A DNA stretch of 37,581 nt from positions 1 through 37,581 of the forward strand of contig CAMPCO010000003.1 of the NCBI GenBank assembly GCA_946646305.1, given 5' to 3'. The notes beneath the pieces are model-generated. The model was not told where the DNA came from. It did no database searches and worked only from the letters and a program-made list of their open reading frames with translations. This document shows positions 803 to 36,674 of the stretch, piece after piece. The number at the start of each line of letters is the position of its first letter. Position 1 is the first letter of the stretch. A program made the position numbers and the translations under genes. Source of the stretch: an uncultured Clostridia bacterium. Its GTDB lineage: Bacteria; Bacillota; Clostridia; Oscillospirales; Acutalibacteraceae.

Positions 803-826
803 AAGTTTTTTCTTCCTTTCTTTTGC

Positions 827-855
827 TTGACATTTTTAATATAAGGTATTATAAT
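827..855 (+). promoter_or_regulatory. Consensus sigma-A promoter, rightward (XRE/ImmA genes)
   Basis: TTGACA (827-832), 17-bp spacer, TATAAT (850-855). Confidence 0.85.
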
Positions 856-869
856 TGGAAATACCGAAA
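854..869 (-). promoter_or_regulatory. Operator-like site O1
   Basis: Reverse complement TTTCGGTATTTCCAAT matches 12/16 of the O3 sequence; overlaps the end of the rightward -10 and the predicted +1. Confidence 0.55.
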
Positions 870-874
870 TCGAT

Positions 875-890
875 TTACGGCATTTCGTAT
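875..890 (+). promoter_or_regulatory. Operator-like site O2
   Basis: TTACGGCATTTCGTAT, 14/16 identical to O3. Confidence 0.7.
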
Positions 891-901
891 CTGCAATATA
901 C

Positions 902-930
902 ATTATATTACGGTATTTCGTAATTGTCAA
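902..930 (-). promoter_or_regulatory. Consensus sigma-A promoter, leftward (zinc-knuckle and HTH genes)
   Basis: On minus strand: TTGACA (930-925), 17-bp spacer, TATAAT (907-902). Confidence 0.85.
908..923 (+). promoter_or_regulatory. Operator-like site O3 (TTACG-N6-CGTAA palindrome)
   Basis: TTACGGTATTTCGTAA fills 16 of the 17 spacer bases of the leftward promoter. Confidence 0.75.
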
Positions 931-968
931 GTGGTTTTTACGATTTTTCCGAAAAAGGGGATAAAATA

Positions 969-35633: not shown

Positions 35634-35662
35634 TTGACATTTATGGCATTAAAATATATAAT
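35634..35662 (+). promoter_or_regulatory. Consensus promoter for RluA/D-family gene
   Basis: TTGACA-17-TATAAT. Confidence 0.75.
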
Positions 35663-35696: not shown

Positions 35697-36674
35697 ATGA
35701 AAAAACTTTTTACGGCTAAAAAAAATGATGCCGATAAAAGGCTTGATAGGTTTGTTATGAAGGTCTGCCCTAATATGCCCTCTTCCCACCTTTATAAGCT
35801 TATAAGAAAAAAAGATATAAGGGTAAACGGCGCCCGCGCCGAGCTTTCTTACAGACTTTGCCCGGGAGATACCGTATCAATATTCGCCCCCGATGAATTT
35901 TTTGAAGACACCACTAAAAACTATGATTTTTTATCCGCTTCAAAGGCGCTCGATATAGTTTACGAGGATGAAAACATAATCGTGGTCGATAAACCGCAGG
36001 GGCTTATTGTCCACCCCGATAAATCGGAATACCGCGATACGCTTATAAACAGAATTCTTCGCTATCTTTACGAAAAGGGCGAATACGACCCCGAGGCGGA
36101 AAACACCTTTACCCCCGCCCTTGCAAACCGCATCGACCGCAACACCTGCGGAATGGTGCTGGCGGCAAAGAATGCCGAGGCGCTTAAAGTTTTATGCGAT
36201 AAAATAAAACTGCGAGAGATTGATAAATTTTATCTTTGCGTGGTTCACGGCGTTCCTAAAAAAAGGGAAGCCTTGCTTACGGGTTATCTTTTTAAGGATG
36301 AGGATAAAAACCGCGTCTTTCTGCAAAGCAAAAAGCAGGATAACAACCGCACAATTAAAACAAAATACCGCCTTTTGGCGACAAAGGGTAACCTTTCCCT
36401 TTTAGAGGTGGAACTGCTGACCGGCAGAACCCACCAGATACGCGCCCATCTTTCTTCCATAGGTCATCCGCTTTTGGGGGACGGGAAATACGGCAACCTT
36501 AAAGCCGATAAAAAAATGGGATATACAAAGCAAGCCCTTTGCTCATATAAGCTTTGCTTTAATTTTAAAAGCGATGCGGGGGTTTTAAACTATCTTTCGG
36601 GTAAAACACTGACGCTTAGTGATGTATGGTTCGCCCGCGAACTTTTCGGAGAGAATTATAAAGATTTAATATAA
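35697..36674 (+). CDS. RluA-family pseudouridine synthase (second paralog in window)
   Basis: N-terminal S4 domain; ‘NRIDRNTCGMVLAAKN’, ‘LLTGRTHQIRAHLSSIGHPLLGDGKYG’. Confidence 0.93.
   Translation: MKKLFTAKKNDADKRLDRFVMKVCPNMPSSHLYKLIRKKDIRVNGARAELSYRLCPGDTVSIFAPDEFFEDTTKNYDFLSASKALDIVYEDENIIVVDKPQGLIVHPDKSEYRDTLINRILRYLYEKGEYDPEAENTFTPALANRIDRNTCGMVLAAKNAEALKVLCDKIKLREIDKFYLCVVHGVPKKREALLTGYLFKDEDKNRVFLQSKKQDNNRTIKTKYRLLATKGNLSLLEVELLTGRTHQIRAHLSSIGHPLLGDGKYGNLKADKKMGYTKQALCSYKLCFNFKSDAGVLNYLSGKTLTLSDVWFARELFGENYKDLI

Follow-up and report, generated by a model that had tools for sequence, protein, structure and literature searches.

The locus described here, in a 37,581-nucleotide stretch of Clostridia DNA that we call the window, is probably an immunity switch of the prophage type, with an ImmR/ImmA-type (COG2856) gene pair and a promoter geometry like that of phages P2 and 186, that now lies in ordinary chromosome. 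Apparently the switch has been domesticated. The window is one entire contig of a 1.17-Mb MAG that is 93% complete, and its relatives are Oscillospiraceae/Clostridia MAGs, many of them from ruminant guts. To the right of the cassette we find ordinary chromosome with opp transporter, tex, mutL, mutS and RF3 genes, and no integrase or structural phage genes around the switch on that side; on the left the contig ends 110 bp from the cassette, so that such genes could lie beyond it.

The rightward operon begins with an xre/immR-like gene (969-1310, + strand) that encodes a Cro/CI-type HTH repressor of 113 aa. Its product scores above the cut-off for HTH_26 (E=7e-11) and HTH_3, matches phrog_8 (transcriptional regulator), and has profile matches to ICEBs1 ImmR (7t8i, E=1e-5) and to DdrO chains. 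The end of xre is overlapped by the start of the next gene (1310 and 1288, respectively), an immA/irrE-like gene (1288-1683, + strand) for an M78 metallopeptidase with an intact HEIGH motif (Peptidase_M78, PF06114, E=2e-8; phrog_87 metallo-protease, E=2e-25). The xre-immA operon is closed by a palindromic, terminator-like hairpin with a 15-pair stem (1681-1713), which was listed on the - strand and which, read directly, ends in a T run on the + strand too. Transcribed the other way are a Zn-ribbon protein gene (419-802, - strand), whose product has a helical tail and pairs of invariant cysteines, and an ArpU/sigma-region-4-like helix-turn-helix protein gene (112-429, - strand; phrog_36, E=3e-10), followed by a palindromic terminator-like hairpin (81-110) that we read directly from the sequence. 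An earlier note on this DNA did not mention what the leftward transcript contains.

Facing promoters and the operator array

Each operon is preceded by a perfect TTGACA-17-TATAAT promoter (12/12 match), at 827-855 (+) upstream of xre-immA and at 902-930 (-, read from 930 to 902) upstream of the Zn-ribbon/sigma4-like operon. The -10 elements are 46 bp apart, and the earlier note had both promoters and this distance exactly right. With starts at ~862 and ~895, which are predictions from the -10 positions only, the two transcripts would overlap. At a threshold of at least 10/12 this is the sole facing pair in the 37.6-kb window, and in 2000 dinucleotide shuffles of positions 780-980 a facing pair of at least 10/12 arose in 0.5% and one of at least 11/12 in none. 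All 46 loci compared, the window included, keep the facing pair with at least 10/12 per side and 17-bp spacers, the counts over these loci being not independent because of shared ancestry; the promoter gap across relatives is 27-46 bp. Apart from these two, the window has a single perfect TTGACA-TATAAT promoter, at 35634 (+), shortly before a pseudouridine synthase gene (35697-36674).

By sequence, a conserved operator array spans both promoters in the 46 loci. The full design consists of four TTACG-N6-CGTAA operators. A and C lie in the rightward and leftward spacers, respectively, B in the gap between the promoters, and D in the stretch that separates the leftward -35 from the xre ribosome site. 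Scores of at least 7/10 are reached by B, C and D in 46/46 loci and by A in 39/46. The A-B spacing is 41-42 bp in 30 loci and 30-32 bp in 9 loci, while B-C and C-D measure 30-33 bp and 30-32 bp across the 46; these spacings correspond to 3 or 4 helical turns.

We scored the sites in the window with a matrix derived from relatives. Operator C (908-923, 21.0 bits) is a perfect palindrome that fills the leftward promoter spacer and is the only perfect TTACG-N6-CGTAA in the assembly. Operator B (TTACGGCATTTCGTAT, 875-890, 14/16, 16.4 bits) lies within the start of both predicted transcripts, and operator D (TTACGATTTTTCCGAA, 938-953, 12/16, 5.0 bits) has its centre 30 bp from that of C. Slot A (834-849) has decayed to 5/10 half-site matches, and it is empty in the window and in its closest relative (L128/L221).

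The earlier note had proposed three operators, O1, O2 and O3, and had staked its reading on conservation of these 16-mers in homologous loci, which proved strong over the 46 loci. O2, given as a 14/16 match, and O3, given as perfect, were read correctly and occupy slots B and C, and the centre distances of 21 and 33 bp are also correct; however, the conserved slots number four, D was missed, and O1 is not among them. O1 (854-869) does match in inverted orientation at 12/16, a match that D equals, but it is a weak site: it has 4.0 bits, ranks 13th by the matrix in the window, lies outside the four conserved slots and reaches a score that shuffled regions attain 16% of the time. Its core GAAATACCGAAA is nevertheless kept identical in the nearest relative, L128, where the flanking bases differ, and the site lies two turns from B. 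From the sequences of this one genome pair, O1 may be a lineage-specific replacement for slot A.

A search for a wider regulon by the perfect operator gave no second locus in the assembly, and the matches elsewhere in relatives include TTACGAGAATTCGTAA. A recurrent TTACGAGAATTCGTAA/TTACGAGAATCCGTAA palindrome is present in many same-genus genomes, including ones without the XRE (for example G028:C10:39507, G024:C13:809 and G012:C9:43956).

The leftward genes and dinB

In 46/46 loci the gene next to the switch on the left is that of the Zn-ribbon protein; the sigma4-like gene usually comes after it, and dinB stands next in most same-genus loci. While dinB is present in 35/36 same-genus relatives searched, it was not found in the window's own assembly (G000, 93% complete), and an adjacent dinB is absent from the window and from a seven-locus clade. 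Zn-ribbon, sigma4-like and dinB genes also stand together without the XRE or its operators in L101 (G009:C85) and L106 (G029:C19).

We considered whether the switch replaces LexA in the SOS response of a LexA-less lineage, and this is ruled out by the finding of LexA both in the genus and in the window's genome. Many stand-alone dinB copies carry a LexA box. Among the cassette dinB copies checked, 14 of 15 have one, either after the sigma4-like gene and ahead of dinB, or at the dinB start, and most cassette dinB genes have a promoter of their own together with this box. LexA boxes before most cassette dinB genes also rule out control of cassette dinB by the switch alone. Given these boxes and the missing dinB in the window's assembly, we regard the two small genes as the direct targets of the switch, with dinB reached by possible read-through only.

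The Zn-ribbon protein has no Pfam family and no phage match; viral and phage searches with it returned nothing close, and a fold search gave no significant match. The sigma4-like protein (P0004) is modelled by AF2 with a pLDDT of 95.7, and its best matches in the fold search are sigma region 4 domains, with E of about 0.5 or worse and none of them at E<0.4.

Relatives and prophages

The XRE occurs in 39/70 same-genus genomes at E<=1e-25, with one copy in each. The two A-B spacing classes, which are about one helical turn apart, fall into the two clades of the XRE tree, and these clades also differ in promoter gap (44-46 versus 27-34 bp) and in the presence or absence of immA. Presence of immA changes once on the tree, coinciding with the split in A-B spacing. 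One clade, with 14 XREs in the tree, has the array and no immA alongside, so that ImmA cannot be the sole trigger. It is made up of L023, L026, L034-L037, L041 and L232-L238, which retain switch and operon, lack an immA next to xre and have the narrower promoter gap. Since the locus counts share ancestry, we base the case for phasing on the difference of one turn and on the prophage loci described below, which are more distant.

XREs of the order that are more distant, whether or not an M78 gene accompanies them, often keep the facing layout with different operators, these being of TTACA type in L148, L151, L155, L158 and L252, of GTAC type in L160 and of TTTCGGAAA type in L159 and L162; a de novo search for operators at distant XREs yielded spacings that were mixed and noisy. 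In another family of the order, at ~4600-4780 of L108 (G039:C34), an XRE/M78 pair faces a dinB-side promoter with GGTGAAA-type repeats, so that the layout is kept with another operator. Residue 35 of the recognition helix (D/E) and TACG/TACA sites vary together, at 52:20 against 1:6 (naive p=0.004). We rejected this covariation as independent evidence, as it rests on one independent contrast on well-supported branches, and retain it as a lead only.

A conserved insertion site was not found; the resemblance of the window to L221 does not extend beyond the cassette. In G072 the counterparts of the window's opp genes and of the cassette are on separate contigs.

We searched IMG/VR for the pattern of a promoter with the operator in its spacer. 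Seven contigs matched, and five of these carry the pattern twice, face to face. The four main sites in L354, L357, L358 and L360 have spacings of 41-42, 32-34 and 30-32 bp. L360 is a near-copy of L358, and in both a metalloprotease (phrog_87) and an integrase (phrog_1) come after the XRE; the other side starts with a transcriptional repressor of phrog_1468 and has an SSB gene farther out. L240, a phage-labelled human faecal scaffold, carries these operators too, at spacings of 42, 35 and 41 bp. Judged by these sequences, the design elsewhere looks like a prophage immunity switch. Because it recurs in prophage contigs, the chromosomal cassette is most simply read as a descendant of a prophage immunity switch. 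The earlier note had likened the arrangement to a phage-type switch, and this comparison gains from finding the same arrangement upstream of an XRE gene in prophage-like contigs; what the note left out is the overlapping M78 gene at 1288-1683, by which the pair is of ImmR/ImmA type.

Known switches, proposed mechanism and rival explanations

Like the ImmR/ImmA systems of ICEBs1 and related ICEs and phages (TnSmu1, SaPI3, pneumococcal prophages), the locus pairs an XRE repressor gene with a following M78 metallopeptidase gene. Its control region holds several predicted operators, where ICEBs1 has six repressor sites (PMC8960796), and an opposite operon would be under control. In ICEBs1 itself, if not throughout the family, PimmR and Pxis are divergent (PMC11318856), whereas the promoters here face each other and the transcripts overlap, which makes the locus a variant and not an ICEBs1 layout. 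Also unlike ICEBs1, there is no excisionase, RapI/PhrI or mobility gene, and the controlled operon consists of two small genes. The facing promoters of P2/186 switches are 40-60 bp apart (PMC7498355), in line with the 46 bp here. The locus departs from P2/186 in that no Apl/Cox gene is seen beside the switch, the first leftward gene being that of the Zn-ribbon protein, and in having an ImmR-type repressor with an operator array, a Gram-positive host and no phage around the switch in the window. With the promoters of ICEBs1 divergent and P2-like switches using Cox/Apl, it fits neither known switch exactly.

Predicted facing promoters with ImmR/ImmA-like genes are already known. According to passages of PMC11318856, PhagePromoter predicts them in such modules of the Clostridium clostridioforme prophages phi5 and phi12, for which transcriptional interference was proposed and a comparison with 186 drawn. 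Phi5 and phi12 thus share ImmR/ImmA-like genes and facing promoters with our locus, but they are full prophages, and the passages of PMC11318856 consulted mention neither an operator array nor phasing nor conservation across genomes. In the open-access literature searched we found no description of the phased array, of its variation by one turn or of its use next to dinB, an absence that is weak evidence.

From the promoters, the operators in their spacers, the conservation, the gene content and the HEIGH motif, all of which are observed in the sequence, we infer a working scheme of binding, cleavage, damage signal and interference. XRE dimers would bind the TTACG-N6-CGTAA sites 3-4 helical turns apart, which would put neighbouring dimers on one face of the DNA. 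Operator C, inside the leftward promoter, would shut that promoter together with B, which lies within the first bases of both predicted transcripts, while operator A, inside the rightward promoter in most relatives, would serve autorepression, and a further putative site, D, precedes xre. Since A is lost in the window, the leftward promoter would there be guarded more tightly than the xre promoter. By analogy with ICEBs1, TnSmu1, pneumococcal prophages and Deinococcus (PMC8960796, PMC10233336, PMC12637031, PMC5552922), ImmA would be activated, most likely by DNA damage, and lead to cleavage of the XRE, whereupon the leftward promoter would fire. This would yield the Zn-ribbon and sigma4-like products, with possible read-through into dinB where dinB follows. 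Leftward polymerases would also cross the xre promoter and, as in 186 (PMC7498355), might hold it down by interference.

The best solved match of the XRE is 6jq1, which by its sequence we regard as DdrO (the entry name is XRE regulator only), and over the recognition helix it aligns GISRAVLTDYKMGR with GISVPYLSDLERGR. Many DdrO-motif (RDRM) sites have the half-site TTAYG in the form TTAYG-N7-CRTAA (PMC1978522), and the half-site TTACG fits it. DdrO/IrrE of Deinococcus thus resembles our pair in combining an XRE with an M78 peptidase, in half-site and in recognition helix; the RDRM, however, is 17 bp long (N7) and our operator 16 bp (N6), and the Deinococcus regulon is scattered whereas the only perfect site in this assembly is at this locus. 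DNA damage is a signal to which both ImmR/ImmA and IrrE/DdrO pairs respond (PMC10233336, PMC12637031, PMC5552922).

Four other explanations were weighed. That the perfect facing promoters and the palindromes arose by chance from AT-rich sequence has next to no probability in our view: O1 alone is at chance level, but none of 2000 shuffles gave at least 11/12 for both promoters, and conservation extends to 46/46 loci. We also think it very improbable that the pair is a toxin-antitoxin-like module, with XRE as antitoxin, M78 as toxin, an ordinary autoregulated promoter and leftward genes that are unrelated neighbours. Such XRE-COG2856 pairs are discussed, in passages of PMC2701414, within a comparative survey of type II toxin-antitoxin and related mobile stress systems, but the S. 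mutans ImmRA pair, when tested, was no such module (PMC10233336), the operator-filled promoter points at the constant Zn-ribbon neighbour, and the clade without immA keeps everything else.

The two remaining explanations have more in their favour. The switch might be the remnant of a decaying prophage, left by a dead phage and with leftward genes now useless to the host; the prophage contigs with the same switch, the sigma4/ArpU-like gene of phage type, and the loss of operator A and apparent lack of dinB in the window's assembly agree with this. We consider it unlikely, as the facing promoters and operators are intact, the XRE is kept as a single copy across so many of the genus genomes, the likeness between the window and L221 is confined to the cassette, and no further phage gene belongs to the cassette. 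Less easily set aside, though still rather doubtful, is an accessory mutagenesis switch, in which XRE/ImmA would be a second, LexA-independent damage control on a dinB operon, as IrrE/DdrO is on Deinococcus repair genes. The consecutive Zn-ribbon, sigma4-like and dinB genes of most same-genus relatives, the DdrO-like half-site and recognition helix and the M78 peptidase speak for it; against it stand the LexA box that dinB usually has of its own, the LexA of the genus and of this genome, and the want of an adjacent dinB in the window and the seven-locus clade.

Starting from the domesticated immunity switch as the preferred reading, we tentatively suggest, at somewhat less than even confidence, that gut Oscillospiraceae may use such a prophage ImmR/ImmA switch, with its facing promoters and helically quantised array of four operators, to place a second damage-responsive control on the Zn-ribbon/sigma4-like operon that accompanies an SOS-regulated translesion polymerase, and that the face-to-face array may be a general immunity design of ImmR-type repressors in the phages of these bacteria. 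A Gram-positive ImmR/ImmA counterpart of the 186 face-to-face switch, earlier only predicted in a few prophages, thereby gains sequence support from many genomes. Promoter orientation, placement of operators in spacers and helical phasing can also be read from dozens of natural variants of a compact switch, some of which lack the metallopeptidase and some of which differ by one helical turn. Two small, uncharacterised proteins emerge as the output of what is likely a damage-responsive switch beside dinB.
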